Origin: Chloroflexota bacterium
GTDB lineage: Bacteria; Chloroflexota; Anaerolineae; Aggregatilineales; Phototrophicaceae
DNA length: 33,744 nucleotides
Assembly: GCA_026713245.1 (NCBI GenBank)
Contig: JAPOOU010000113.1
Coordinates: 1 to 33,744 of the forward strand
Direction: 5' to 3'
In this document: one piece after another, positions 13,525-29,174 of the stretch
How positions within the stretch are numbered: position 1 is the stretch's first letter
Layout of the letters: each line of letters starts with the position of its first letter
Program-made: the position numbers and the translations under genes
Notes under the pieces: generated by a model
Database searches by the model: none
Seen by the model: the letters and a program-made list of their open reading frames with translations, nothing else
Told to the model about the DNA's origin: nothing

Positions 13525-13618
13525 AAATCGCGCGTACCCGTTAGGATAGCCGGCCTTGGCGTCGGCTATCCCCCGGCAATTGCAAAATCTCTGCTCGCAA
13601 GCGGAGGGAGAAGAGATC

Positions 13619-14422
13619 ATGGCAAATGGCGGTCCTTTTCGCCGTATGGTCGTTCTGGGCGACAGCAATTCCTATGGCATGTGCGCGCGCGAGCCAGGCA
13701 ACGAATGGAATCAAGTCCTGGCCAACTGGCTGCGGCACTTCCAGGACGAGCCGCTGGAAGTCTTCAATCGCGGTTTGCCGGCGGGGGTTGTTTCTCCGCG
13801 TTGCCCGGGCTATGCCGATTCAGCCAAGCCCAGCTTGATGGAGCGCTACCAGCGACACTGTATCGACCTCGATCCGGATCTGGTCGTCGTAGCGCAAAGC
13901 TTGAACGATATGCGCGCGGGCATGCCGCTGCAAGAATACCTGGCAGATCTTGGCGATATCGTCTCCGACATACAGGCGCGGACAGCGGCCTTGGTAGTCA
14001 TGCCCGGCGTCTATCATCAGATCCACGGCCGGGGCGTAAACGACCCGGCGCTTTACCCGACCTGGTCGCGCTGGAATGACCGGGAAGCCCAGGCCTACAA
14101 CCACGCCATCGGCTTGCTCGCGGCGGAGCTCGGCGCCTTGTATGTTGATACCCGCGCGGTCTTCGCCGGCGCTGATTGGGCCTTGCATTCGGATTGCTGT
14201 CATCTCAACGACCTGGGCCAGGTGCTGATGGGCAATGCCGTCTTTCAGGTCATCGCCACCCATTGCGCCGGGATCGCGGACAAAACCATGCGCGTCATGA
14301 AGGAAGAAGCGGTGTCTATCCTCAACACTGGCGGTACCGACACCGACGAGGAGATTCGCGCGCTCTGGAACGAGGCGCTGGATCGTTTCACGATTGAATT
14401 TGATGACGACTTGAAAAAGTGA
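13619..14422 (+). CDS. SGNH/GDSL-family hydrolase, copy 1
   Basis: The 267-residue product is an SGNH-fold esterase. It has block I VVLGDSNSYG (Ser nucleophile), RGLPAG with the oxyanion-hole Gly, block III SLNDMRAGM (Asn), and block V DCCHLND (catalytic Asp and His). There is no signal peptide, so it acts in the cytoplasm. The ATG at 13619 is chosen over the upstream track start because GGAGGGAGAAGAG lies ahead of it and the paralogue begins at the same place. It lies 94 bp after the sugar-binding-protein gene and 13 bp before a close paralogue, so it is probably part of the importer operon. It may deacylate an imported sugar ester; the substrate is not visible. Confidence 0.88.
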   Translation: MANGGPFRRMVVLGDSNSYGMCAREPGNEWNQVLANWLRHFQDEPLEVFNRGLPAGVVSPRCPGYADSAKPSLMERYQRHCIDLDPDLVVVAQSLNDMRAGMPLQEYLADLGDIVSDIQARTAALVVMPGVYHQIHGRGVNDPALYPTWSRWNDREAQAYNHAIGLLAAELGALYVDTRAVFAGADWALHSDCCHLNDLGQVLMGNAVFQVIATHCAGIADKTMRVMKEEAVSILNTGGTDTDEEIRALWNEALDRFTIEFDDDLKK

Positions 14423-14435
14423 CGGGATTAAGCTT

Positions 14436-15224
14436 ATGAACCATGGTCCATTCCGCAGAATGGTGGTCTTAGGAGACAGCATCTCCTACGGAATGTGCGC
14501 GTCGGAGCCCGCGAACGAGTGGAACCAGGTGGCGGCGAATTTGCTGCGTAAGTTCCAGGACGAGCGCCTGACGGTATTCAACCGCGGTCTGCCGGCCGGC
14601 GTGATATCTCCCCGCTGCCCAGGTTATGACGAATCGGCCAAGCCGAGCTTGCTGGAGCGCTATCGACAACATTGCATCGACTTGAAGCCGGACCTGGTGC
14701 TAATTGCCGAAGGCGTCAACGATATGCGCTCGGGCATGCCTCTGGGGGAATACATCGAAGACCTGGAGAGCATCGTCAGCGACATTCAAGAGCAGACCGG
14801 GGCGCTGATTGTCTTGCTCGGCGTATATCATCAAACTTACGGGGTGGGCGCCAACGACCCGGAAGTCTACCCCACCTGGACCCGCTGGAGCTACGAGATA
14901 TCCCGGGCCTACAACGTGGCAATTCGGAAAGTCGCGGAAAAGTATCGCGCGATCTTCGCCGATGCCGAGCAAATCATGGGCGGCGCTGACTGGTTGCTGC
15001 ATGTCGATGCCTGCCACCTCAACGACCTGGGGCACGTCCTGATCGGACAGGGCATCTTCCAGGCGATTGCTACACGCTGCAAATCGGTCGCGGACAAGAC
15101 ATTCCGAGTCATCCAGGAAAAGGATGTATCGATCCTGAATACCGGCGGCGCGGATACCGACGACGATATTCAGCAACTGTGGGCGACGGCGCTAAGCCGC
15201 TTCACCGAACACCTCGATGAATAA
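14436..15224 (+). CDS. SGNH/GDSL-family hydrolase, copy 2 (tandem paralogue)
   Basis: The 262-residue product aligns end to end with copy 1, with clearly more than half of residues identical by eye. Catalytic blocks are kept: VVLGDSISYG, GVNDMRSGM and DACHLND. Both copies share the family-specific segments FNRGLPAGV, SPRCPGY, AKPSL and SILNTGG, so this is a distinct SGNH subfamily that has duplicated in tandem. There is no signal peptide. The start has only weak ribosome binding sequence (GACGGGATTAAGCTT), which suggests translation coupled to copy 1. Differences in the region around the substrate pocket (VVVAQSLND against VLIAEGVND) may mean different acyl or sugar specificity. Confidence 0.88.
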   Translation: MNHGPFRRMVVLGDSISYGMCASEPANEWNQVAANLLRKFQDERLTVFNRGLPAGVISPRCPGYDESAKPSLLERYRQHCIDLKPDLVLIAEGVNDMRSGMPLGEYIEDLESIVSDIQEQTGALIVLLGVYHQTYGVGANDPEVYPTWTRWSYEISRAYNVAIRKVAEKYRAIFADAEQIMGGADWLLHVDACHLNDLGHVLIGQGIFQAIATRCKSVADKTFRVIQEKDVSILNTGGADTDDDIQQLWATALSRFTEHLDE

Positions 15225-15268: not shown

Positions 15269-15297
15269 AAAAAAATCGGCGCGCTCGGCTAGCGCGC
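15269..15297 (-). terminator. Rho-independent terminator of the binding-protein-fold gene
   Basis: On the minus strand, arms GCGCGCT/AGCGCGC with a 5-base loop are followed by CGATTTTTTT. It lies about 30 bp after the stop of the gene at 15325-16482, in the convergent gap with the second SGNH gene. Confidence 0.75.
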
Positions 15298-15324: not shown

Positions 15325-16482
15325 TCAGGCGTATAAGGCTTTGGCTTCTTGAAACAGCCGCTTCAACTCGGCGAGCACTTGCCGGGCATCGCCTCCCCGC
15401 ATCAAATACTGGCGGATGGGCGCGCCGCCGTGATCCTGAAAATGCAAGTAACCGGGGAATCTCGGCCGCAGGTAAGCCCGGTCGAGCGCGGGCAAGGTAT
15501 TGCGGAAGTAGTTGCTGCTGCGGCGATTAACCTCGTCGTCGGTCCAGGCGCCGCGATGACCGGGCTGGCCGCCGTTCTCGAAGAACAGCGTTCTCTGGAT
15601 GACCGGGCTGGCGCTAAACATGGCGTAATCGCGCGCGATCTCCACCGACTTGCAGCCCGTGGAAATCGAGAGTCCGGTGCCGCCCAGCGTACTTTGGCAG
15701 CGCCCCTGGCCATCGATGTCGACCATGTCATCAAAAACCAGCACATTGTCCGAGTAGCCGGGGCGCGAATAATTAGAGTATCCGTAGGCGAAGGGACAGT
15801 AGACGTAATCTGCGCGCCGCGAAAGCGCTTCATATACGGCAATCGGATTCCAGGCGAAGATCTCCCGCGGGCACAGGCTGGCCAGTTCTCGCAATTGCTC
15901 CAGGGCGCTTAAGCTCATCTCGTCGGACACCGCCCATTCATCGTCGACGAAGGGCGCTTCGCCCCGGGTGGCGCAGAGCATGTAGAAATTCATCAGCGTA
16001 TCGATTTCTATGCCGGGCATAATAACCCGACCCTGCCGCGCCAGCGCCAGCAAATCGCTCCAGGCATCCGGCTTACGCAGATCGTAACGCGCGAGCAAAT
16101 CCGGCCGATAGGAAGCCACGGGTGTGGCCGCGTCAATGGCCAGGGCGCATTGATTGCCGTTGAAGATATAACTGGCGTGCGAATGCCCGACCGAGTTGGC
16201 TGCCTGATCCGCCATATAGTCGGCCGGGATGATTTCCTGTAGCGGGACCAAGACTTGACTGAAAGCCGCGTAACCGGCCCAAGGATGATCGATCACCAGC
16301 ATGTCATAGTCCTCGGCCAAGCCTTGAATCGGCGCGTCGGCGAATTCCTGCAATGAACGCTTCTCCCAGACGATTTCCACGTCCGGGCGCATCTCGCAAA
16401 AGCGCTGCGCGGTCGCAACCACCGATACAAAACCGCGTGAATGATTCCAGGTGATGCCACGTAACAGGGTCTTCGCCGTCAT
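15325..16482 (-). CDS. Solute-binding-protein-fold protein without signal peptide
   Basis: The 385-residue product resembles family-1 extracellular solute-binding proteins (RPDVEIVWEKRSLQEF, AEDYDMLVIDHPWAG, GTGLSIS, and a hinge-rich C-terminal half). The well-supported start (GGAGGCGAGAAC before the ATG at 16482) gives the N-terminus MTAKTLLRGITWNHSRGF, with no hydrophobic leader. The longer track ORF adds only a polar, Arg-rich extension, so a signal peptide is not being missed. No permease or ATPase adjoins it. It is therefore either a cytoplasmic ligand sensor or enzyme-like protein derived from a binding protein, or a misplaced transporter subunit. Related signal-less proteins, to my recollection, accompany CoA-transferase/MaoC/IclR genes in other bacteria. 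A strong promoter with tandem palindromes lies upstream. Confidence 0.75.
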   Translation of the reverse strand: MTAKTLLRGITWNHSRGFVSVVATAQRFCEMRPDVEIVWEKRSLQEFADAPIQGLAEDYDMLVIDHPWAGYAAFSQVLVPLQEIIPADYMADQAANSVGHSHASYIFNGNQCALAIDAATPVASYRPDLLARYDLRKPDAWSDLLALARQGRVIMPGIEIDTLMNFYMLCATRGEAPFVDDEWAVSDEMSLSALEQLRELASLCPREIFAWNPIAVYEALSRRADYVYCPFAYGYSNYSRPGYSDNVLVFDDMVDIDGQGRCQSTLGGTGLSISTGCKSVEIARDYAMFSASPVIQRTLFFENGGQPGHRGAWTDDEVNRRSSNYFRNTLPALDRAYLRPRFPGYLHFQDHGGAPIRQYLMRGGDARQVLAELKRLFQEAKALYA

Positions 16483-16542: not shown

Positions 16543-16602
16543 TTTTGCTTGCAAAAGTCAGTTTTATATGCAAAATATAGTGAGCGGGTTGCTCCTTGTC
16601 AA
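16543..16602 (-). promoter_or_regulatory. Near-consensus promoter with tandem TTTTGCnnGCAAAA operators (site 1)
   Basis: On the minus strand TTGACA (16597-16602) and TATATT (16574-16579) are 17 bp apart. Two 14-bp palindromic units follow: TTTTATATGCAAAA (16562-16575, plus-strand reading), overlapping the -10, and TTTTGCTTGCAAAA (16543-16556), with a 5-bp gap. The layout is the same as at site 2, pointing to repression by a dimeric regulator pair. The plus-strand gene MaoC starts 200 bp away, and TTGCAA-N16-CAAAAT on the plus strand could serve it, so the site may control both directions. Confidence 0.75.
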
Positions 16603-16781: not shown

Positions 16782-17240
16782 ATGATCAAGACCAGGTATT
16801 ACGAAGATTATCTGATCGGGGAAAGCCGCGAGACCTTTGGCAGAACGATCACTGAAGCCGATATCGTGCTCCATGCCGGTCAAACGGGAGATTTTTTCCC
16901 GCACCACATGGACGCCGAGTGGGTTAAGACCCAGGTATTCAAAGAGCGCGTGGCGCATGGCACCTTGATCCTGTGCGTAGCCATCGGTATGACGGCCAAC
17001 GAGATCAATCCCGTCGCCTTCTCCTACGGCTACGACCGCGTCCGTTTCATTCGGCCGGTTTTCATCGGCGATACCATCACGGTCAAGGCGACCATCAGCG
17101 AAAAGCGCGATTATCCCAAGCGTCCCGATCACGGTTATGTGGTTGAGCAGGTCGAGGTCTTTAACCAGCATAACAAGATTGTTCTTGCTTGCCAGCATCT
17201 GTATCTGGTCCAACGCAAGGAAGGCGTGGAAAGCGACTAA
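16782..17240 (+). CDS. MaoC-like hot-dog dehydratase/hydratase
   Basis: The 152-residue product is a single hot-dog domain of the MaoC/(R)-enoyl-CoA hydratase type. The hydratase motif is present near residues 36-44 as GDFFPHHMD: Asp37 and His42 stand at the spacing of the catalytic dyad in GDxNPx[10 protein letters not shown] and [11 protein letters not shown] are standard family blocks. It probably adds or removes water on a CoA thioester in the cytoplasm, as a dimer. AGGAAGGGCTG precedes the ATG. The IclR regulator follows after about 55 bp, then an oxidoreductase, so these three probably form one transcript. A second MaoC protein at 22007-22510 lacks the motif histidine and may be its partner. 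Confidence 0.88.
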
Positions 17241-17295: not shown

Positions 17296-18108
17296 ATGAA
17301 TGAGCAAAAAGCGGGTCCCAATTACAGCGTCCCGGCTTTGGAGAAAGGCTTGGCTGTTCTGGAATTGCTTGCCGAAGCGTCCGAGCCGCTTTCGCTATCC
17401 CAGATCTCGGAGAAGACCGAGAACAGCACCAGCCAACTCTTCCGCACCATGACCTGCCTGGCGGAAAGCGGCTTTGTCATCAAGGACGATGTCTCTGGCA
17501 AGTACATGCTGACGCTAAAGCTCTTTGAACTGGCGAATCGACATTCGCCGCTGGAGCATCTGCTGCAGATGGCGGATTTGCCAATGCAAGAACTCGCGTG
17601 GACGATCCGCGAGTCCTGCCATATCAGCATTATGCAGCAGCGGCAGCTCCTGGTCGTCGGACAGGTGGAAAGCCCGGAGAAGGTGCAGATCATCGTCTCG
17701 GCAGGCGCTACCTTTCCGCTGACGCGGACGGTTTCGGGGCGCATATTACTTTCGTCCACACCCGATAGCAGCATCGAAATGACACTTGAACACGATCCCG
17801 AGTACTGCAGTATGAGCGCTGAAGAACGCGAGCTCTTTTGGCAGCGCATTGCTGATATTCGCCGTACCGGCATTTCAACCGCCGTGGACGAATCCTTCAT
17901 CGGCATGAAGGATACCGCCGTCCTTGTCGGCAACCCGGCAGTTGGGGTGACGGCAGCGGTCGCCGTCACGCAATTGACGGCGACCCGTCGCAGCAGCGAA
18001 CCGCATAAAGTAGTGGCAGCTTTGCGCCAGTGCGCGCGTCAGATCAACGAACGCGCCGGCTTGAGTTATGGATTGGAAAAGCCGATCTTGGTGGCGGACG
18101 CTGTCTGA
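17296..18108 (+). CDS. IclR-family transcriptional regulator
   Basis: The 270-residue product has an N-terminal winged helix-turn-helix at about residues 12-72 (VPALEKGLAVLELLAEA, LSLSQISEKTENSTSQLFRTMTCLAESGFV, KYMLTLKLFELA), then a C-terminal ligand-binding domain with RESCHISIMQQRQLLVV, FPLTRTVSGRILLS and a GISTAVDESFIGMKDTAVLVG block. This is the standard IclR layout and length; such proteins bind as dimers or tetramers to paired palindromes and respond to small acids or aromatics. The ATG at 17296 is preferred over the long upstream extension, which overlaps the MaoC gene. It is the only transcription factor gene in the window and lies at the centre of the genes carrying the tandem TTTTGCnnGCAAAA sites, so it is the natural candidate to bind them. 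Confidence 0.92.
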   Translation: MNEQKAGPNYSVPALEKGLAVLELLAEASEPLSLSQISEKTENSTSQLFRTMTCLAESGFVIKDDVSGKYMLTLKLFELANRHSPLEHLLQMADLPMQELAWTIRESCHISIMQQRQLLVVGQVESPEKVQIIVSAGATFPLTRTVSGRILLSSTPDSSIEMTLEHDPEYCSMSAEERELFWQRIADIRRTGISTAVDESFIGMKDTAVLVGNPAVGVTAAVAVTQLTATRRSSEPHKVVAALRQCARQINERAGLSYGLEKPILVADAV

Positions 18109-18222: not shown

Positions 18223-19305
18223 ATGCCTCCATTCAGCGTTCGACAAAAGGCGATCTTGCCGGCAAACCCGCCCCCGATCGTAAGCATCGGCCTGGGCGGG
18301 ATCGTGCACGACGCCCATTATCCGGCTTATCACATCGCGGGCTTCGAGGTGGCCGGCGGCTTCGATATCGACGCCGAGCGCGCCGCTATGATGAAGGACA
18401 AGTTCTCAATACCGCGCATCTACGAATCACTCGGCCAGGCGATCGAAACGGCCCCGGAAAATGCTGTCTTTGATGTCGCCGTACCGGGCAGCGCAATCAG
18501 CGAAATAATCCGCGAAATCCCGGCCGGGCGCGCCGTTCTCATTCAAAAACCCATGGGGGAAGACATGGCGCAGGCGCGGCAGATCCTCGACCTTTGCCGC
18601 GAACGAAATCTGTTGGCAGCCATCAATTTCCAACTGCGCTTCGCGCCCTTTATCATCGCCGCGCGCGACATGATAGCGCAGGGTCTGATTGGCGAGCTCT
18701 GCGATTTGGAATTCCGCGTACAGTGCAATACGCCCTGGCGCCTGTGGGGCTTCCTCTTTCCCCTGCCTCGCGTCGAAATCCTGTATCACAGCATCCATTA
18801 TGTCGATCTGGTTCGGTCCTTCTGTGGCACGCCGACATCGGTATATGCCAAGACAATGAGCCATCCATCCGCGCCGGAACTGAAGGGCGGCGTCCGTTCC
18901 ATGATCATCATGGACTACGGCGAGAACCCGCGCGTCAACGTGATGACAAACCACAGCCACGCCTACGGGCCGGAAAAGCAGCAATCCTACGTCAAGTTCG
19001 AAGGCAGCAAGGGGGCCATCCAGATCCGCGCCGGATTGAATATGAATTATCCGGACGGCGTACCCGACCGCTTCGAGTACGTTTTGCCGGATGGCGAAAC
19101 GGAGCCCGAGTGGCAGTCGCTGAATATAGAAGGGACATGGTTCCCGGAAGCATTCATCGGCGCCATGGCCAGCTTGATGCGCTGCGCCAGTGGCGAGAGC
19201 GATGTTCTGCCGACATCGGTTGAAGACGCCATTGAAACGATGGCGACTGTGGAAGCGGCCTATGCATCCAGCGCGCAAGGCGGGACTGCGTTGCCTGCAT
19301 GGTAA
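18223..19305 (+). CDS. Gfo/Idh/MocA-family NAD(P)-dependent oxidoreductase
   Basis: The 360-residue product has the two-domain layout of the family. The N-terminal Rossmann fold begins PPIVSIGLGGIVHDAHYPAY, with the acidic cofactor-binding FDID at the end of the second strand, and VLIQKPMGED supplies the family EKP-type lysine motif (here QKP). The C-terminal domain includes NFQLRFAPF, VEILYHSIHYVDLVRSFCG with the usual active-site D-x-x-x-H-like histidine segment, and DVLPTSVEDAIETMATVEAAY near the end. Such enzymes oxidise or reduce sugars, sugar acids or inositols in the cytoplasm. The start is supported by AAGAAGGAATATGCC. Placed after the IclR gene and near a lactonase-type hydrolase, it could be the sugar dehydrogenase of the pathway; the substrate is inferred. 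Confidence 0.88.
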   Translation: MPPFSVRQKAILPANPPPIVSIGLGGIVHDAHYPAYHIAGFEVAGGFDIDAERAAMMKDKFSIPRIYESLGQAIETAPENAVFDVAVPGSAISEIIREIPAGRAVLIQKPMGEDMAQARQILDLCRERNLLAAINFQLRFAPFIIAARDMIAQGLIGELCDLEFRVQCNTPWRLWGFLFPLPRVEILYHSIHYVDLVRSFCGTPTSVYAKTMSHPSAPELKGGVRSMIIMDYGENPRVNVMTNHSHAYGPEKQQSYVKFEGSKGAIQIRAGLNMNYPDGVPDRFEYVLPDGETEPEWQSLNIEGTWFPEAFIGAMASLMRCASGESDVLPTSVEDAIETMATVEAAYASSAQGGTALPAW

Positions 19306-19712: not shown

Positions 19713-20558
19713 CTACAAACCGAGACTGTAAAAGCTATTGGCCGTGCCGCCGAGCAAGGCGTCTTTATCCGCGTCGGACAAATCGGCGATGGCTTTATTG
19801 GTTTCGTCCCAGACCTTGGCGTAATCGCCGGCCAGCACAGCAACGGGCCAATCGCTGCCGAACATGAGCCGATCAACGCCGAATTGCTCGATCGCAAAGT
19901 CGATATGCGGTTTGATATCCTCGTGGGTCCAGTTCTCGAAATCGGGCGTAACCGTATTCAAGCCGGACAACTTGGCGAAGACATTGGGACTTTCCGCAGC
20001 GGCAGCCATCTGGTCGCGCCAGACCGCGCGGTCGGCTTCGTCCAGCGGCGGCTTCGCCAGGTGATCGATGACCATTTTCAGGTTGGGCACGCGTTCGACC
20101 AGCTCCGGCACGTGCTTGAGATGATTGGGAAACACCGCCACCACATCAAAGGTCAAGCCGCGGTCCGCCAGCAACTGCAAACCTTCGATCACCTGTTTCT
20201 GGATGACCCAATCGGGATTTCCCTCTTCGTGGATCAAATGGCGCATGCCCTTGAAATAAGGGTTCCGCGCATATTCATCCAGCTTTCTGTCGGCCTCTGC
20301 AGGATCATGCAGCGGCGCCCAGCCGACCACGCCGGCCACCCAGTCCTCTGCCGCCGCGATCGCCAACATCGAGTCGGTATCGGCATAGGAATCCATCGCT
20401 TGAACGATGACTGTCTTGTCGACGCCGGACGCCGCCAACTGCGGCGCCAGTTCCGCGGCATCGAAATTGCGGTAGATCGGCCCATAAGCAGGCACCAGCC
20501 AAGGGTATGCCACTTCATCAAGATTCCAAAAATGCTGGTGGGTATCAACTCTTAGCAT
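19713..20558 (-). CDS. Amidohydrolase-family lactonase (L-fuconolactonase-like, COG3618 type)
   Basis: The 281-residue product is a TIM-barrel amidohydrolase. The metal-binding HxH lies at the start (VDTHQHFWN, His7 and His9), followed by [25 protein letters not shown], a strand-4 MVIDHLAKP, and GSDWPV with the catalytic Asp. These blocks match the COG3618 lactonase group that opens fuconolactone, rhamnonolactone and related sugar lactones. GGGGAGGCAAGC before the ATG at 20558 sets the start and excludes the longer track ORF. It is transcribed divergently from the CoA-transferase, sharing a 149-bp control region with tandem palindromes. With fuconate dehydratase at 27933 it would supply consecutive steps of L-fucose oxidation. 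2-pyrone-4,6-dicarboxylate-type hydrolases are a more distant alternative. Confidence 0.87.
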
Positions 20559-20609: not shown

Positions 20610-20669
20610 TTGACAGATCTGGTTTTGCTGACTATATTTTACATACAAAAAGTGTTTTTGCAAGCAAAA
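20610..20669 (+). promoter_or_regulatory. Near-consensus promoter with tandem TTTTGCnnGCAAAA operators (site 2)
   Basis: TTGACA (20610-20615), a 17-bp spacer and TATATT (20633-20638) make a near-ideal promoter for the CoA-transferase gene. The palindromic units TTTTACATACAAAA (20637-20650) and TTTTGCAAGCAAAA (20656-20669) begin at the last two bases of the -10 and are 5 bp apart. Read from the transcribed strand, this is the same order and spacing as site 1: a weaker unit on the -10 and a perfect unit downstream. The divergent amidohydrolase gene has TTGCAA-N16-TAAAAT within the same element. Confidence 0.78.
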
Positions 20670-20707: not shown

Positions 20708-21865
<1,158 letters not shown>

Positions 21866-22006: not shown

Positions 22007-22510
22007 ATGCCGGAAAACACACCTGTTGAAATGCACAAAGGCCTGCCCCTGTTTAATACCGAAACCTGGATGTACGAGGACTTCGAGATTGGCGCCAAGA
22101 TCAAATCGATTCGGCGCACGCTTTCCGAAGGCGAGTGCATGATCTTCAACGCCATCGTGCTTGATATGCACCCCTATGTTGCCGATGAGATATTCGCGCG
22201 GGACGAAGGCATCTTCGACAAACGGCTAGTCGCCGGCTCGATGGTTTTCAGCATCGGCCTTGGCTTGATGGCGCATAACAACATTCACACCTTCAGCTAC
22301 GGCTATGACAAGCTGCGCTTCATCAAGCCGGTTTTCATCGGAGATACGATCTATACCGTGCGCACGCAACTGAGCAAGGAACCGAAATACCCGGAGATGG
22401 GTCTGGTCAAAGTCAGTTACGAGATATACAAAAATGAAGGTGTGCTGGCTCTGTACTGCGAGCACCTGCAGACCGTGAAATATCGCCATCCGGAGAACTT
22501 CAAATCGTAG
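22007..22510 (+). CDS. MaoC-like hot-dog protein lacking the motif histidine
   Basis: The 167-residue product is a hot-dog domain related to the MaoC protein at 16782: [57 protein letters not shown] and a C-terminal [17 protein letters not shown]. At the hydratase motif it reads LDMHPYVAD (residues 52-60): the Asp is present, but the position of the catalytic His (Asp+5) is Val58. A compensating His at Asp+2 exists, as in GDxHPxH variants, but the dyad is incomplete. It may be a non-catalytic partner in a heterodimer with the first MaoC protein, as in mycobacterial HadAB, or bind CoA esters. GAGGAGGCACCC sets the start at 22007. Confidence 0.87.
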
Positions 22511-22609: not shown

Positions 22610-22933
22610 ATGCAACGGTTTGGACAAGTGATCGGCATCAAGAAAGAGCATCTGAAAGAATACACGGAACTGCATGCCAATACCTGGCCCGGCGTGCTCA
22701 AGAAGATCGAAGAATGCAATATCCGCAATTATTCGATTTTTCACTACGGCGATCTGCTTTTTGCTTACATGGAATACCATGGCGACGACTTTGAAGCCGA
22801 TATGGCAAAAATGGCGGCCGATGAGACGACACAGAAGTGGTGGGATATCTGCATGCCAATGCAGAATCCCGTACCCGACCGCGCCGAGGGCGAATGGTGG
22901 AAGACGCTCGACGAGGTCTTCCACACCGATTGA
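22610..22933 (+). CDS. L-rhamnose mutarotase-family protein (RhaM/YiiL-like)
   Basis: The 107-residue product is a small ferredoxin-like-fold mutarotase that interconverts sugar anomers. Family features are RFGQVIGIKKEHLKEYTELHANTWPGVLKKIEECNIRNYSIFHYGDLLFAYMEY with the conserved catalytic His and Tyr, TQKWWDICMPMQNPVPD and a closing WWKTLDEVFHTD. Length equals the family norm (about 104). Homologues act on L-rhamnose or L-fucose; the second fits the fuconate dehydratase nearby. CAGGAGAGCAAC precedes the ATG. It is the last gene of the CoA-transferase/MaoC transcript, with hairpins following. Specificity cannot be read from the sequence by eye. Confidence 0.92.
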   Translation: MQRFGQVIGIKKEHLKEYTELHANTWPGVLKKIEECNIRNYSIFHYGDLLFAYMEYHGDDFEADMAKMAADETTQKWWDICMPMQNPVPDRAEGEWWKTLDEVFHTD

Positions 22934-23225: not shown

Positions 23226-24344
23226 TTAATGAACCGCAATTGTAGCGTTGTCGATGAAATCCCAATCCCATTCGATGCCCGTGCCGGCGCCCTGCGGCGG
23301 ATGCGCGTAACCCTCGGCGTCTATATGAATCGGATTCTTGACACCCAGCCTCATCAGCGTGCTCGGGATCAGCGCTTCGAAGAATTCGCAATTGGCGATG
23401 GCGCAGCAACAATGCAAGTTGACGATATCAAGAGCGGGATAGACAGCCGTGTGCACTTCGCAACGAATGCCAAATGACTCCGCCAGATGCGCCGTTTTCA
23501 TCAAGGCGGTCACGCCGCCCTTCCACGAGACATCGCTGCGCACGATGTCCACCACGCCGCTGGCGATACACTCCGCCGTTGAATAGTGCGAGCCAACCAG
23601 CACCTCGGTGCCGGCGATGGGAATATCCAGGTCGCGCGCCAGGCGCCGCAAGCCATGAAAGTCGACATCATAAAGCGGTTCCTCGAACCAGTGATAGTTG
23701 AGCTTTTCCAGTTCCCGTCCCATGCGCAAGGCCTCATCGTAATAAAGATGCGCCGTTACCGGATCCGCCATCAACTTGAAATGCGGATCATCGCCGATTT
23801 GCTCGCGGCACAAGCGATAGGCTTCCAGGGCTTCGTTATAGTCGCCCGGCGGGTGCAGCTTGTAGCCATGGAAGCCCTGCTGCTTGAATTCGGCGACTTG
23901 ATCGGCATAGTCACCTGGCGAATCCAGGAACAGCGAACTAACGTAGGTCGGCACTTTTTCGCGATAGTGTCCCAACACCTTGTACAGCGGAAGATCGGCA
24001 ATTTTGCCGGCGATATCCCATAGCGCGATATCAAAGGGACCGTAAGAATAGATCGGCGGGAAGTGCCAGAAGCGATCATAACGCCGAAAGTCGTGCCAGT
24101 GTTTTTCGCGCGCCAACGCATCCTTGCCCAGGAAAAAAGGCTTGAGCGAATCGACGGCAATTGCGCCGGCCATTTCGGCGCCCATGCCGGCGAAGCCCAT
24201 GCTGATGCCGTCAATGCCCGCGTCCGTCGACAGCTTGACCATGATGAATTGCAGGTCGGAGCTTTGCACGTCGCGCATCTCGCCCTCAGCCATGACGGAT
24301 TCCTGGTGCTTGCAAACGCGGATTTCGATATCTGTGATTCTCAT
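23226..24344 (-). CDS. Mandelate racemase/muconate-lactonizing-type enolase-superfamily enzyme
   Basis: The 372-residue product has the enolase-superfamily capping domain and TIM barrel. Predicted metal ligands are Asp194 (LMADP), Glu221 (WFEEPLY) and Glu247 (AGTEVL). The end-of-strand-2 motif is K162-L-H164 (GYKLHPPGD) rather than the usual KxK, and a possible strand-7 base is His298 (CEVHTA). The nearest recognisable group is the mandelate racemase/sugar-acid dehydratase branch. It would abstract a proton alpha to a carboxylate and dehydrate or epimerise a sugar acid. It is the last gene of the operon with two permeases and a binding protein, 23 bp after the second permease gene, so its substrate is probably derived from the imported compound. 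Confidence 0.87.
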   Translation of the reverse strand: MRITDIEIRVCKHQESVMAEGEMRDVQSSDLQFIMVKLSTDAGIDGISMGFAGMGAEMAGAIAVDSLKPFFLGKDALAREKHWHDFRRYDRFWHFPPIYSYGPFDIALWDIAGKIADLPLYKVLGHYREKVPTYVSSLFLDSPGDYADQVAEFKQQGFHGYKLHPPGDYNEALEAYRLCREQIGDDPHFKLMADPVTAHLYYDEALRMGRELEKLNYHWFEEPLYDVDFHGLRRLARDLDIPIAGTEVLVGSHYSTAECIASGVVDIVRSDVSWKGGVTALMKTAHLAESFGIRCEVHTAVYPALDIVNLHCCCAIANCEFFEALIPSTLMRLGVKNPIHIDAEGYAHPPQGAGTGIEWDWDFIDNATIAVH

Positions 24345-24367: not shown

Positions 24368-25237
24368 TCAGCCCTTGACCGCGCCGAAGGTCAAACCGCT
24401 GACCAGGTTGCGCTGTACCAGAATGACAAAGATGACCGCGGGCACCATCATGATCACGCTCATGGCGGCCATGCCGCGCCAATCTACCGTGAATTGCTCG
24501 GTAAAGGCGAACAGGCCGGGCGGGAATGTTTTGGCGGCGTTATTGCGCGCCAGGACGCTGACGATCTGAAATTCGTTCCAGGCAGCCAGAAAAGCGAAGA
24601 TGGCAGCCGTCGCCAAGCCGGGCAAGGAGAGCGGCAGTTCAATACGCCAGAAGGCCGACCAGTGTCCGCAGCCGTCGATATAGGCTGATTCAGTCAGCTC
24701 CTGCGGGATCTGGCGGAAGAAGCCATCCATCAGCCAAGCAGTGAAGGGGATATTGACGGCGATATAAACAAATGCCAGGCCGAAAACATTATTGGTTAGT
24801 CCGGCCCGGTTAAAGAGCAAGAAGAGCGGCAAACTCAGGGCGACGCCTGGTACCGAGCGCGAAAGCATGATGCCGAGGAAAAGCGTGGTATGAAAGCGGA
24901 AGCGGAAGCGAGCAAAGGCATAACCGGCCAGCGTGCCCAGCGAAACCGCGACGATCGTGCTGGTGCCGGCCGCTAGAAGCGAGTTGCGCAGGTAGGCTTC
25001 GACCGCGACGCGCTGCTGCACTTCGGGGTTCAAGCCGAACATATTGGCGTAGGCTTCCAGCGTCAGCCGCTGCGGGATCCACACTGGCGGGAAGGAATTG
25101 ATTTCGGAATTAGGGCGGAAAGCCGTCGTGATGATCCAGAAGGCCGGCAGCGCCAAAGCCAGCAGCGCCGCCCAGGCGACGGCATTCCAGATGGCGTCGT
25201 TGCGGCGGCGGTTCGGTCCCACGCTGCGCGTGTTCAT
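24368..25237 (-). CDS. CUT1 ABC sugar transporter permease (MalG-like)
   Basis: The 289-residue inner-membrane protein has six predicted helices, among them AVAWAALLALALPAFWIIT near the N-terminus and VIMMVPAVIFVILVQRNLV near the end. The EAA loop that contacts the ATPase is ESAYIDGCGHWSAFWRIELPLSLPG, and the C-terminus LTFGAVKG is typical of MalG-type subunits. The ATG at 25237 overlaps the stop of the preceding permease by 4 bp, so translation is coupled; the longer track ORF is spurious. The operon contains no ATPase gene. Confidence 0.92.
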   Translation of the reverse strand: MNTRSVGPNRRRNDAIWNAVAWAALLALALPAFWIITTAFRPNSEINSFPPVWIPQRLTLEAYANMFGLNPEVQQRVAVEAYLRNSLLAAGTSTIVAVSLGTLAGYAFARFRFRFHTTLFLGIMLSRSVPGVALSLPLFLLFNRAGLTNNVFGLAFVYIAVNIPFTAWLMDGFFRQIPQELTESAYIDGCGHWSAFWRIELPLSLPGLATAAIFAFLAAWNEFQIVSVLARNNAAKTFPPGLFAFTEQFTVDWRGMAAMSVIMMVPAVIFVILVQRNLVSGLTFGAVKG

Positions 25238-26190
25238 CGCACAATTCTCGCTTTGACCAATTGCCGGAAGAAATACAGCGTGAAAAGCACCGACAGGAAA
25301 ACTGTGATCCAGGACATCGCGCTGCCCAAGCCGAATTTGGTATTCTCGATGGACAGGCGGGTGATATAGGTCCATAGCATCTCGGTGCGATGGGCGGGGC
25401 CGCCGTCGGTCATGATGCGCACGATATCAAAAGCGCGGGCGATATCCAGTGACATGATCGTCAGGGCGATGTAGGTGAAAGGCGCCAGCAGCGGAAAGGT
25501 AATGAACCGAAATTTCTGCCAGCCCGAAGCGCCATCAACCTCCGCCGCCTCAAAGGTTTCAGTCGGCAGAGACAGTGTGCCGGCAAGCAAGATTATCGTC
25601 AGCACCGGGATATTCATCCACACCGAAGCCACGATGATGGAGAACATGCCCAGCGGCACATCGACCAGCCAGGCGATCTGGCCTTGAGCCTGGATTAAGC
25701 CCAGGCTGTAAAGGAAGTTGTTGACCAAACCGACGCTGGCATTGAAGAACCAACGGAATTGCATGCCCACCAAGATTGGCGCGAACATCATCGGCACCAT
25801 CAACAGCGTGCGCAAGATGCTCTGGCCCACTGTCACCCTCGCCAGCAATTGCGATAGCGCCAAAGATAGCGCGTAACTCAAATTGACCGAGACGGCCAGG
25901 AAAATAATCGTATTGCCCAGCGAGCGCCAAAAGATCGCGTCATCCAAAAGTTTTTCATAATTGCGCAGCGCCTTGCCGAGCGTGAAGTTCAAACTATTAG
26001 GGCGCAGCAGCTCATAAGGCGTGAAGCTGACATATAGGGAATAGACCAGTGGAAAAGCAATGACGAGCAGGATGACGACGACGGAGGGCAGAATCAACAT
26101 ATAGGGGAAGGCGCCAGCCTCCAGCCGATTACTGTGGGCGACCTGGATCGGCGCTTCTTCTTCGGTATTCCTTGAGCGGTTAAGAGTCAT
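25234..26190 (-). CDS. CUT1 ABC sugar transporter permease (MalF-like)
   Basis: The 318-residue inner-membrane protein carries a polar N-terminal tail of about 27 residues, then FPYMLILPSVVVILLVIAFPLVYSLYVSF and further helices (TIIFLAVSVNLSYALSLALS, FSIIVASVWMNIPVLTIILL). The EAA loop is EAAEVDGASGWQKFRFITFPLL and MTDGGPAHRTEMLWTYI is the usual MalF-type block. It pairs with the downstream MalG-like protein. A 165-bp gap with hairpins separates it from the binding-protein gene upstream, a common way to make the binding protein in excess. Confidence 0.92.
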   Translation of the reverse strand: MTLNRSRNTEEEAPIQVAHSNRLEAGAFPYMLILPSVVVILLVIAFPLVYSLYVSFTPYELLRPNSLNFTLGKALRNYEKLLDDAIFWRSLGNTIIFLAVSVNLSYALSLALSQLLARVTVGQSILRTLLMVPMMFAPILVGMQFRWFFNASVGLVNNFLYSLGLIQAQGQIAWLVDVPLGMFSIIVASVWMNIPVLTIILLAGTLSLPTETFEAAEVDGASGWQKFRFITFPLLAPFTYIALTIMSLDIARAFDIVRIMTDGGPAHRTEMLWTYITRLSIENTKFGLGSAMSWITVFLSVLFTLYFFRQLVKARIVR

Positions 26191-26221
26191 GGACCGAGCA
26201 ACAGCAAAGTTTGCACATAAG

Positions 26222-26246
26222 GCGGGCGACTCGCGAAGTCGCCCGC
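26222..26246. repeat. GCGGGCGACT/AGTCGCCCGC hairpin in the binding-protein/permease gap
   Basis: A perfect 10-bp stem with a 5-base loop lies after the binding-protein gene and before the permease start (minus-strand operon). Its arms belong to the GGGCGAC family seen at 922-987. It probably attenuates read-through or blocks RNA decay, favouring binding-protein expression. TTTT follows only on the plus strand, where no gene ends. Confidence 0.6.
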
Positions 26247-26355
26247 TTTTGGTGATGTATTAGAGCCTTGCCGCGTTCAAGAGAGAATGGGAGTGTGTCA
26301 CTAGCGAAACAGTCCCATCCTCCTTGTGGGGCCCCGGGTGGGGATTTGTCAGGCT

Positions 26356-27723
26356 CTAATCGTAATAGCCCGCATCCGCCATCAGCTCGCGGGTATCGGC
26401 CGCGGCTTGGTCCAAGCCTTCCTGCGCGCCGATATCACCCAGCATGATGGCTTGCACTTTGGGATACAGAATGTTGGAGAAGGGAATCCACTCTGCGATC
26501 AGGGGCGGCGTGCGGAAGTCTTCAGCCACTTGCAGCTTTGCCAGCTCCAGCCGTTCGCGGTCAAGCGCGCGGTCGGAGGCTGCGGCATCCGCGATCACGC
26601 GATCCCATACATCGTCACGTGTCGGCAGGTAACCCAACTGCGCTTCTTCATAAGCAACGCGTTCGGAGCTCAGGAACTTAATCAGCTGTATACCCGCCTG
26701 CGGATTCGGCGCGGAGGCCGGCACGGAGAAGGCATGGGCGCCAGCCCAGCCGGAGGGACGAACCGCGTCGCCGCCGATGCTCAAGCCGGTGAAGCCGCGC
26801 GCCAAACCGAAGTTCTCGCTGATGTTCGGGCAGTTTTCAGGATCCTGGAAGTAGGCGTACCAGCCGTACCATTCCAGCTTAATGGCGGTATCGCCGTTGC
26901 AGAAGTAGGCAGCCACGCCATCCCATACCAGCGAGGTGGTATCGGCCGGGATGATGCCATCCTGATACCAGCCGCGCAGCATCTCGGCCACAGCCACGCC
27001 GATTTCGTCGTTGAAGACGGGCTCCCAATTCTCGTCGAACATGGCGCCGCCGCTGGCGAAGACCATCTCGTAGAAGCGGCCATTGAGGGCTTCGTCGCGG
27101 CCCGCCAGGGTGTAGCCATAGGTGCTATGGTCATTCTCGACGAAGAATCGCGCCTGGCGATCAATCTGCTCGAGTGTGCTCGGCACTTCCAATGCCTCGC
27201 CTGTGGCTTCCATGTAGGCGGCGGCAATCGCTTCGTCCTCATAGAGGTCCTTGCGATAGTGGATAGGGCTGATATCCGCGTGGCGTGGGATGAGGTAGAG
27301 GTTGCCGTCGATGGTGGCGGCGTCCAGGATGGCGGGGCTAAAGGGCGCCAGTTCTTCTTCGCTGAAGTAATCTTGGAGCGGCAGCAAGAAAGGCGTGTAC
27401 TGGGCGACGAAGCTGGTGTGATCCCACGCCACGTCATAATCGGCCGCGCCGGTGGCGAAGTCTACTTTGAGTTTCTGGTCTATGGCGAAGCCATCCAGCA
27501 GGGCCACTATCTCGACCGTGGCGCCGGTGGCTTCTTCAAAAATGGGAATGGATTCGTACATGGCTTCATAGGTGCCACCGCCGATATTCGCCATCTTGAT
27601 GTTGATGCCAGACAGATCCATGTCCAGGCCGGCGTACTGCGGCTCGTCCTGCGCTGTCGCCGGCAGGGCGAGCAGCCAGACCAGCGCCAAGACCAACACA
27701 ATTAACGAGAGTTTGCGAATCAT
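26356..27723 (-). CDS. CUT1-type extracellular sugar-binding protein
   Basis: The 455-residue secreted protein has a signal peptide (MIRKLSLIVLVLALVWLLALPATAQ, AxA cleavage, no lipobox) and the solute-binding family 1 pattern: IPIFEEATGATVEIVALLD, AADYDVAWDHTSFVAQY, LYLIPRHADISPIHYRKDLYED, WEPVFNDE, and a C-terminal WAGAHAFSVPASAPNPQAGIQLIKFLSSE. The ATG at 27723 is chosen because AAGGGAGAAG precedes it and the signal peptide starts there; the upstream extension is polar. It heads an operon with two permeases and an enolase-superfamily enzyme. Operators of site 3 lie upstream, shared with the divergent fuconate dehydratase gene, which suggests a fucose-related or similar sugar ligand (inference). 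Confidence 0.92.
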   Translation of the reverse strand: MIRKLSLIVLVLALVWLLALPATAQDEPQYAGLDMDLSGINIKMANIGGGTYEAMYESIPIFEEATGATVEIVALLDGFAIDQKLKVDFATGAADYDVAWDHTSFVAQYTPFLLPLQDYFSEEELAPFSPAILDAATIDGNLYLIPRHADISPIHYRKDLYEDEAIAAAYMEATGEALEVPSTLEQIDRQARFFVENDHSTYGYTLAGRDEALNGRFYEMVFASGGAMFDENWEPVFNDEIGVAVAEMLRGWYQDGIIPADTTSLVWDGVAAYFCNGDTAIKLEWYGWYAYFQDPENCPNISENFGLARGFTGLSIGGDAVRPSGWAGAHAFSVPASAPNPQAGIQLIKFLSSERVAYEEAQLGYLPTRDDVWDRVIADAAASDRALDRERLELAKLQVAEDFRTPPLIAEWIPFSNILYPKVQAIMLGDIGAQEGLDQAAADTRELMADAGYYD

Positions 27724-27867: not shown

Positions 27868-27912
27868 ACTATAGCAAGATTTTGCCAGCAAAACAAGTTT
27901 TTGCCAGCAAAA
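27868..27912. promoter_or_regulatory. Divergent control region with two identical TTTTGCCAGCAAAA operators (site 3)
   Basis: Two identical copies of TTTTGCCAGCAAAA (27880-27893 and 27899-27912) are 5 bp apart, the same spacing as at sites 1 and 2, and are preceded by GACTATA as there. They lie 20 bp before the fuconate dehydratase start. On the minus strand, TTGTTT (27891-27896) and TATAGT (27868-27873) at 17 bp form a plausible promoter for the binding-protein operon lying within the element. A -35 for the plus-strand gene is not clear. A GCTATA/TATAGC inverted repeat (27859-27875) adjoins. Confidence 0.75.
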
Positions 27913-27932: not shown

Positions 27933-29174
27933 ATGCGCGACATATCCATCAGCAGAATAAGCACCCATGACCTGCGATTTGCGCTGGAAGAAGGCGCCGG
28001 CGCCGACAGCGTGCATTCCAATCCGCAGTATTCATACGCCGTAACAGAGATCCAGACAAATGGCTACCTGTCCGGCATCGGATTGGCCTTTACCCTGGGC
28101 GGCGGAAACGATCTGGTCTGCCGCGCCATCGACGATCTGGCTGGTGTGTTGGTCGGCCGCGAAGTCGAAGCGCTGATGGCAGAATTTGGGGCCGTCTACG
28201 CGCTCATGCTGGAACATCCACAGTATCGCTGGCTGGGTCCCCACAAGGGCGTTGTGCATCTGGCCCTGTCGTCGATCGTCAACGCCTGCTTCGACCTGTG
28301 GGCCAAGGCGCGAGGCTTGCCCCTGTGGCGGCTGCTGCTGGATTTGACGCCGGAGCAACTGCTGGCGACGCTGCATCTGCGCTACATCGACGATGCGCTG
28401 AGCGCGGACGACGCATTGGCGATTCTTCGGAACGAGCATCGGCTGCGGGGACAGCGGATGGACATTCTTGAACAGGGCTATCCCGGCTACGACACGTCGA
28501 TTGGATGGATCCAGTACACCGATGACACCATCAAAGAGAACCTGGTCAAATCGATGGATCAGGGTTTCGATTCGGTCAAACTCAAGGTCGGCTCGGATGA
28601 TCCGGCGCGCGATATCCGCCGCGCCTTTCTGGTGCGCGATACAGTCGGCGACGACGCCCGCGTCATGCTCGATGTCAATCAACAATGGACCTTGCCGCAA
28701 GCGCTGGAAATGTGCCGGGAACTACGCGCGATGAATCCCTACTGGATCGAAGAACCCACGCACCCCGACGATGTGCTGGCTCATCAGGCGCTGGCTCGCG
28801 CCGTCGCGCCGATGAAGCTGGCAATCGGCGAGCACCTGCCCAATCAAGTCCTCTTCAAGAATTATCTCCAGGCCGATGCCGCGGGATTCCTGCAGCCGGA
28901 TTGCGTGCGGCTCGGCGGCGTCAGCGAATTCATCGCGGTGAGTTTAATGGCGCGCAAGTACGATATACCGGTCGTGCCGCATGTCGGCGACATGGGCCAG
29001 ATCCACCAGCATCTGGTACTCTTCAATCATATCGCCTTGGGTCACGAAGCGATCTTCCTGGAATACATTCCGCACCTGCGGCAGCATTTCACGGCGCCGG
29101 CGCGCGTGGAAGGCGGGGTCTATGCGACGCCCCAAGAGCCGGGCAGCAGTTCCGATCTGAAGGCGCTACGCTGA
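27933..29174 (+). CDS. fucD: L-fuconate dehydratase (enolase superfamily)
   Basis: The 413-residue product matches the fuconate dehydratase subgroup (bacterial FucD, human ENOSF1) and would convert L-fuconate to 2-keto-3-deoxy-L-fuconate in the cytoplasm. Catalytic residues fall almost exactly where I recall them in the Xanthomonas enzyme: K216-L-K218 (SVKLKVG), Asp247 (MLDVNQQW), Glu273 or Glu274 (WIEEPTHPDD), Glu300 (IGEHLPNQVLFK) and His350 (VVPHVGDMGQ). The early GLAFTLGGGND and GPHKGVVHLALSSIVNACFDLWAK blocks also fit. Length is normal. AGGAGCATTCAC sets the start. It is divergent from the CUT1 operon and shares its operators. Activity on another 6-deoxy or pentonic acid is possible. Confidence 0.9.
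   Translation: MRDISISRISTHDLRFALEEGAGADSVHSNPQYSYAVTEIQTNGYLSGIGLAFTLGGGNDLVCRAIDDLAGVLVGREVEALMAEFGAVYALMLEHPQYRWLGPHKGVVHLALSSIVNACFDLWAKARGLPLWRLLLDLTPEQLLATLHLRYIDDALSADDALAILRNEHRLRGQRMDILEQGYPGYDTSIGWIQYTDDTIKENLVKSMDQGFDSVKLKVGSDDPARDIRRAFLVRDTVGDDARVMLDVNQQWTLPQALEMCRELRAMNPYWIEEPTHPDDVLAHQALARAVAPMKLAIGEHLPNQVLFKNYLQADAAGFLQPDCVRLGGVSEFIAVSLMARKYDIPVVPHVGDMGQIHQHLVLFNHIALGHEAIFLEYIPHLRQHFTAPARVEGGVYATPQEPGSSSDLKALR

Follow-up and report, generated by a model that had tools for sequence, protein, structure and literature searches.

The question raised by this locus is what a protein with the fold of a transport receptor, and apparently no signal peptide, does beside genes for a CoA-transferase, MaoC-like hydratases and an IclR-family regulator. 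The window, that is the whole stretch of 33,744 nucleotides that was analysed, comes from a Chloroflexota bacterium of the family Phototrophicaceae, and the gene in question is called here SBP_A. The first-pass annotation, made from the letters alone, regarded it as a real gene with a strong Shine-Dalgarno sequence, a polar N-terminus, a binding-protein fold and its own near-consensus promoter, operators and terminator, but with no signal peptide and no transporter partners. A cytoplasmic homologue of binding proteins serving a CoA pathway was proposed, as a sensor, a chaperone or an enzyme. Structure prediction and a gene-neighbourhood survey were recommended, and signal peptides or permease neighbours in homologues were named as findings that would refute the proposal. 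The gene and its signals are the following.

15325 to 16482, minus strand: SBP_A, cytoplasmic (predicted) solute-binding-protein-fold protein, 385 aa
16574 to 16602, minus strand: sigma-70-like promoter of SBP_A, TTGACA-17-TATATT, matched at 11 of 12 positions
16543 to 16575, no strand: paired 14-bp palindromes (TTTTGCNNGCAAAA, 19-bp spacing), at and just downstream of the SBP_A -10 element
15279 to 15297, minus strand: intrinsic-terminator-like hairpin and T run, 3' of SBP_A

The open reading frame begins with ATG at 16482, preceded by GGAGG at a distance of a few bases, and its stop codon ends at 15325. The N-terminus, MTAKTLLRGITWNHSRG, is polar, and the first conserved residues lie 6-7 positions past the Met. 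The individual operator-like palindromes occupy 16543-16556 and 16562-16575. The description of a real gene with its own promoter, operators and terminator therefore holds in full.

The binding-protein fold was likewise upheld. SBP_A exceeds the curated Pfam cut-offs for SBP_bac_8 (31.1 versus 27 bits) and SBP_bac_1 (30.6 versus 26), while no NCBIfam model matched. An AlphaFold (AF2) model built from a 55-sequence alignment reached a pLDDT of 94.6 and a pTM of 0.92; it was used instead of the single-sequence model, with a pLDDT of only 36.9. Foldseek aligned it over its full length with MalE3, SmoF and other sugar receptors at TM-scores of 0.82-0.85, whereas nothing beyond weak PBP-like matches came from a viral structure library. 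Since the similarity to sugar receptors is full-length, the model predicts a complete two-lobe MalE-like fold. It is shared with receptors of sugar ABC importers of the SBP_bac_1/8 families, such as Thermotoga maritima MalE3 (6dtq), SmoF (7ofy) and Thermococcus litoralis TMBP (1eu8), and the last of these also has weak sequence homology to SBP_A (E 1e-14 with the family profile).

The 55 sequences, 38-84% identical to the window protein, have 53 invariant positions, including W12, H14, R16, R42, D65, H66, Y105, D117, Y235, N237, R339 and R341. The counterpart of R339 in SmoF and other sugar receptors is the conserved Arg of their RP motif. Where sugar-binding proteins have the Trp of LGGW, which stacks on the sugar, 52 of the 55 sequences have Thr and the other three Ala or Val, so that the binding site appears, from the alignment, to be retained but remodelled. 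SBP_A further differs from the sugar receptors in having a strongly conserved N-terminal motif, GITW[ND]H[SP]RG, in lacking both a signal peptide and a permease partner, and in having a CoA-transferase as its genetic partner.

A scan of genome contigs placed relatives of SBP_A at no fewer than 582 confirmed positions, in Chloroflexota, Bacteroidota, Bacillota, Gammaproteobacteria and other groups; at the DNA level the Citrobacter copy has no match in E. coli genomes. The locus survey took in the nearest 80 relatives, and its counts therefore refer to the closer members of the family. For the 96 homologues with the first invariant motif, TWxHxRG, the nearest ATG, or GTG where ATG was absent, was taken as the start, which falls about 7-12 residues before the motif. 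An in-frame stop lies within 15 codons upstream of the motif in 33 of the 96, leaving no space for a signal peptide in those proteins, and a mis-called start of SBP_A was rejected on account of these stops. A signal-like N-terminus was defined as a best 11-residue hydrophobicity reaching 2.0 within the first 40 residues. By this measure a hydrophobic stretch was found in none of 95 homologues, compared with 13 of 16 transporter binding proteins from the same loci (8/11 and 5/5, some starts being over-extended). SBP_A is thus predicted from sequence to be cytoplasmic, and the absence of a signal peptide to be a family trait; the first of the two potentially refuting findings did not appear.

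The partner of SBP_A in the window is encoded 4 kb away.

20708 to 21865, plus strand: class III (CaiB/Frc) CoA-transferase, SBP_A partner, Asp kept in VVDLFAG; start assigned by inspection

This protein, referred to below as CoAT, contains a CoA_transf_3 domain (Pfam, 311 bits) and matches 10uh (E 2e-58), the Asp of VVDLFAG being aligned with the class III catalytic Asp; it also matches the benzylsuccinate CoA-transferase subunits 9fn0. The Asp is kept in the CoATs according to a pattern or visual check of 139. The partner gene is therefore a clear member of the class III transferases, which include Frc, CaiB, succinate-HMG CoA-transferase and BbsEF.

The recommended neighbourhood survey covered 63 loci outside Chloroflexota, from Bacteroidota, Bacillota, Gammaproteobacteria, Planctomycetota and Acidobacteriota. 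In 60 of them a CoAT lies within 300 bp of SBP_A on the same strand, and in 50 of those 60 the two genes overlap or are separated by no more than 10 bp. The pairing also occurs on annotated plasmids of Rufibacter, Persicobacter, Martelella, Sinorhizobium, Nitratireductor, Roseibium, Methylobacterium and Ponticoccus, and tblastn detected copies of SBP_A in Ensifer, Rhizobium and other Alphaproteobacteria, where the neighbours were read only in part. Of 248 Bacteroidota genomes, 14 encode SBP_A; the same 14, and no others, encode a CoAT pair, in each case as two adjacent genes. Among 34 congeners of the window genome, 27 have both SBP_A and CoAT (two of the SBP_A copies being fragments reaching contig ends) and seven have neither. 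Mean p-distances are 0.342 for SBP_A and 0.348 for the adjacent CoAT, showing that SBP_A diverges equally slowly.

The association has exceptions. One locus (L078) has the order Gfo-SBP_A-lactonase with no CoAT within 10 kb, and in another (L019) a relative of SBP_A adjoins GntR and FAH-family genes, again with no CoAT within about 10 kb. An orphan relative, 39% identical and without recognisable pathway neighbours (L020:9207-10352), is present in the large congeneric genome G033, one of the seven that lack SBP_A and CoAT. No fusion of SBP_A and CoAT was found in the 248 Bacteroidota genomes, where the open frames measure 379-436 aa. In a mirror-tree comparison all operon genes correlate with one another (r 0.83-0.95), and the method consequently does not single out CoAT. 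At a further locus (L017:9182-13291) a relative 46% identical to SBP_A over 353 aa overlaps a class I CoA_trans gene (PF01144), and a class III CoA-transferase gene follows the two.

The CoAT A/B pair of Bacteroidota resembles the heteromeric class III CoA-transferases. The gene order in this phylum is SBP_A, CoAT-A, CoAT-B, SBP_B, Gfo and MaoC, where SBP_B denotes a second signal-less subfamily of binding proteins beginning with F[RK]IAVRKFGPFE (L013:13634-14788, L014:13451-14683). Of the 14 Bacteroidota genomes with SBP_A, nine also have SBP_B, which adjoins the second CoAT paralogue in these and in some other loci. The occurrence of two binding-protein subfamilies beside two paralogous transferases fits a role as binding partners better than chance reuse.

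In the window, where SBP_A and CoAT are separate, further copies of the paired palindrome and a candidate regulator were found.

20637 to 20669, no strand: paired palindromes between the divergent CoAT and lactonase genes
27880 to 27912, no strand: third paired-palindrome site (perfect), between the ABC importer and the second enolase-superfamily gene
17296 to 18108, plus strand: IclR-family regulator, IclR_C found; start assigned by inspection

A search for the pattern TTTTGCNNGCAAAA-5-TTTTGCNNGCAAAA with up to three mismatches returned exactly three sites in the 4.87-Mb genome, and the reversed pattern, used as a control, returned none. The promoters of SBP_A and CoAT are near copies of one another, and in congeners the paired operator again precedes both genes. 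Judged by these elements, SBP_A and CoAT form a predicted regulon governed by a common paired operator. The pair at 27880-27912 suggests that the ABC importer probably belongs to it as well. The IclR-family protein of the cluster is inferred to be the likely binder of the operator.

The importer consists of the following genes.

24368 to 26190, minus strand: two UgpAE-type ABC permeases (open reading frames, used as permease seeds in the survey; no Pfam search was run)
26356 to 27723, minus strand: ordinary signal-bearing solute-binding protein of the ABC importer, N-terminus MIRKLSLIVLVLALVWLLALPATAQ

The claim that there are no transporter partners stands for the SBP_A gene and its family, which have no adjacent permease, but not for the window, since the importer at 24368-27723 is part of the same predicted regulon. 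Permease neighbours, the second potentially refuting finding, were sought in the homologues: no Ugp-type permease lies within 3 kb of SBP_A in any of the 63 loci outside Chloroflexota, and 56 of the 63 have no recognised permease in the whole locus, as far as Ugp- and Rbs-type seeds can detect. RhaT occurs at many Bacteroidota loci and at the enterobacterial ones, the Bacteroidota loci have SusCD and no ABC permease, and the locus of M. nodulans has an MFS transporter. Several Alphaproteobacteria resemble the window in having an ABC importer with its own receptor a few kilobases from SBP_A. Because the family lives without permeases elsewhere, SBP_A is not considered the receptor of the window importer, and this candidate role was rejected, the importer having a receptor of its own.

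The substrate of the pathway was approached through the other genes of the cluster.

16782 to 17240, plus strand: MaoC-like (R)-enoyl-CoA hydratase 1
18223 to 19305, plus strand: Gfo/Idh/MocA oxidoreductase; start assigned by inspection
19713 to 20558, minus strand: Amidohydrolase_2, L-fuconolactonase-like lactonase (NF052480); start assigned by inspection
22007 to 22510, plus strand: MaoC-like hydratase 2
22610 to 22933, plus strand: RhaM-family L-rhamnose mutarotase
23226 to 24344, minus strand: enolase-superfamily sugar-acid dehydratase
27933 to 29174, plus strand: second enolase-superfamily dehydratase; start assigned by inspection

The lactonase scores 206.8 bits against NF052480, under the cut-off of 400. 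Three enterobacterial loci (L068, L073 and L091) combine genes for RhaT, RhaM, Gfo, lactonase, MaoC, a DHDPS-family aldolase and a FucO-type protein with an SBP_A-CoAT-CoAT arrangement, and a fourth (L088) has a gene set like that of L068 without FucO. The FucO of L068 matches the NCBIfam lactaldehyde reductase model (666 bits, cut-off 537), and lactaldehyde as a product points to a 6-deoxyhexose substrate. No enolase-superfamily gene was found in these four loci, the rest of the genomes not being excluded, and the list of open reading frames of L068 contains none of the size of IlvD. The neighbours thus suggest the oxidation of a 6-deoxyhexose, similar to L-fucose or L-rhamnose. L068 itself (L068:3808-13412) is a locus of Klebsiella spallanzanii with a near-complete 6-deoxysugar route.

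Among 60 long loci outside Anaerolineae, CoAT is present in 59, MaoC or ECH in 56, an IclR gene nearby in 36 and an enolase-superfamily dehydratase in only six. The prevalence, within these loci, of MaoC or ECH over enolase-type enzymes suggests, but does not prove, activation of the acid to a CoA thioester followed by dehydration through MaoC or ECH. The loci partly match the non-phosphorylative oxidation of L-fucose and L-rhamnose through dehydrogenase, lactonase, dehydratase and aldolase, with which they share a mutarotase, a fuconolactonase-like lactonase, a DHDPS-family aldolase and a lactaldehyde reductase; unlike that route, most of them lack an enolase-type dehydratase. To our knowledge, the classical route includes no CoA-transferase, MaoC or solute-binding protein.

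An even chance is given to the favoured explanation, that SBP_A is a cytosolic substrate-binding protein and an obligate partner of this CoAT subfamily in 6-deoxyhexose oxidation, the ligand, the contact and the activity all being inferred. SBP_A would have been recruited from the receptor of an ABC importer. Its cleft would bind the sugar-acid substrate or product and present the sugar acid to CoAT, or SBP_A may instead keep CoAT in an active complex. The sugar acid would be converted to a CoA thioester and dehydrated by the adjoining MaoC or ECH enzyme, and the DHDPS-type aldolase and lactaldehyde reductase would complete the route where present. This is supported by the fold, the lack of signals in all 95 homologues, the strict co-occurrence, the mostly tight linkage and the common operator. 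The absence of fusions in the 248 Bacteroidota genomes, the few loci without CoAT and the unspecific mirror tree count against it, and we know of no class III transferase, whether Frc, CaiB, succinate-HMG CoA-transferase or BbsEF, that requires a partner of this fold, such enzymes working without one. The earlier idea of a cytoplasmic homologue serving a CoA pathway gains support from the missing signals and the linkage to CoAT. Its three options are narrowed towards a direct partner of CoAT by the exceptionless co-occurrence of the two genes in two genome sets, although the survey does not discriminate between binding subunit, enzyme and sensor.

An enzymatic role, for example as a dehydratase or lyase acting on a sugar acid or its CoA ester, is the chief rival; it remains possible, although doubtful, and any catalysis is inferred. 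MqnA (chorismate dehydratase) and cyclohexadienyl dehydratase are enzymes on related folds, and MqnA-type proteins provide a precedent for this fold in the cytosol. The invariant positions, a divergence as slow as that of CoAT and the loss of the LGGW Trp would suit an enzyme, and since most loci have no enolase-superfamily dehydratase a catalytic gap may exist. However, MaoC or ECH could already perform the dehydration, no catalytic signature was recognised in SBP_A, and a conserved ligand pocket would produce the same conservation. The precedents are drawn from general knowledge and no homology to SBP_A has been shown; MqnA belongs to another cluster of the fold. A soluble sensor that reads the level of the pathway acid and regulates CoAT or the IclR-family repressor accordingly is distinctly unlikely. 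Binding proteins of this fold change conformation upon ligand binding, an IclR gene is often near, and the window genes have a common specific operator, but IclR proteins have a ligand domain of their own (IclR_C) and SBP_A tracks CoAT (59/60) rather than IclR (36/60).

Retention through operon position alone, either as a passive remnant or to buffer a toxic acid, would account for the few orphan copies such as L020; it is very improbable given the strict co-occurrence, the residues invariant across several phyla and, in Anaerolineae, the status of SBP_A as a separate transcription unit with its own operator and promoter. Hardly tenable, and already largely refuted, is the view that SBP_A is exported as the receptor of an ABC importer, its start having been mis-called or its export being non-classical: receptors are the usual members of SBP_bac families, and 8 kb from SBP_A lies an importer assigned to the same predicted regulon, but in-frame stops bar a signal in a third of the homologues, that importer has its own signal-bearing receptor, and most loci have no recognised permease, with RhaT or, in M. 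nodulans, MFS instead. The Bug/TctC proteins of Betaproteobacteria, orphan binding proteins often found near CaiB-type CoA-transferases, belong to a different Pfam family (TctC) and are exported, while SBP_A is MalE-like and predicted to be cytoplasmic.

If the partnership with CoAT is extended to the whole pathway, a new route can be proposed, tentatively and as rather unlikely to hold in full: a CoA-dependent dehydration of 6-deoxyaldonic acids in which CoAT, often as an A/B pair, works only with SBP_A, SBP_B or both. One or two cytosolic, transporter-derived binding proteins would capture the polyhydroxy acid and pass it to the transferase, and MaoC or ECH would dehydrate the thioester, replacing the enolase- or IlvD-type sugar-acid dehydratase. 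No description of an SBP_A-CoAT module was found in the open-access PMC literature searched, nor is it mentioned in the passages found in a study of catabolic gaps (PMC9007349). The name 'extracellular solute-binding protein' is given to many genes, whose products are presumed to be transport receptors. For the SBP_A relatives examined, cytosolic by sequence and tied to CoAT, the word 'extracellular' misleads. A true partnership would mean that receptors of transporters have been put to use inside the cell, handling substrates for a metabolic enzyme, and that a CoA-dependent processing of deoxy-sugar acids is still undescribed.

Two minor observations were also made. In Ammoniphilus resinae a single cluster contains two SBP_A genes, each adjoined by a CoAT gene (L046:6671-11137). 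In the window, just downstream of SBP_A and on the opposite strand, two tandem and closely similar genes for GDS-motif (SGNH-like) hydrolases (13556-14422 and 14436-15224) lie beside an Rbs-type ABC importer.
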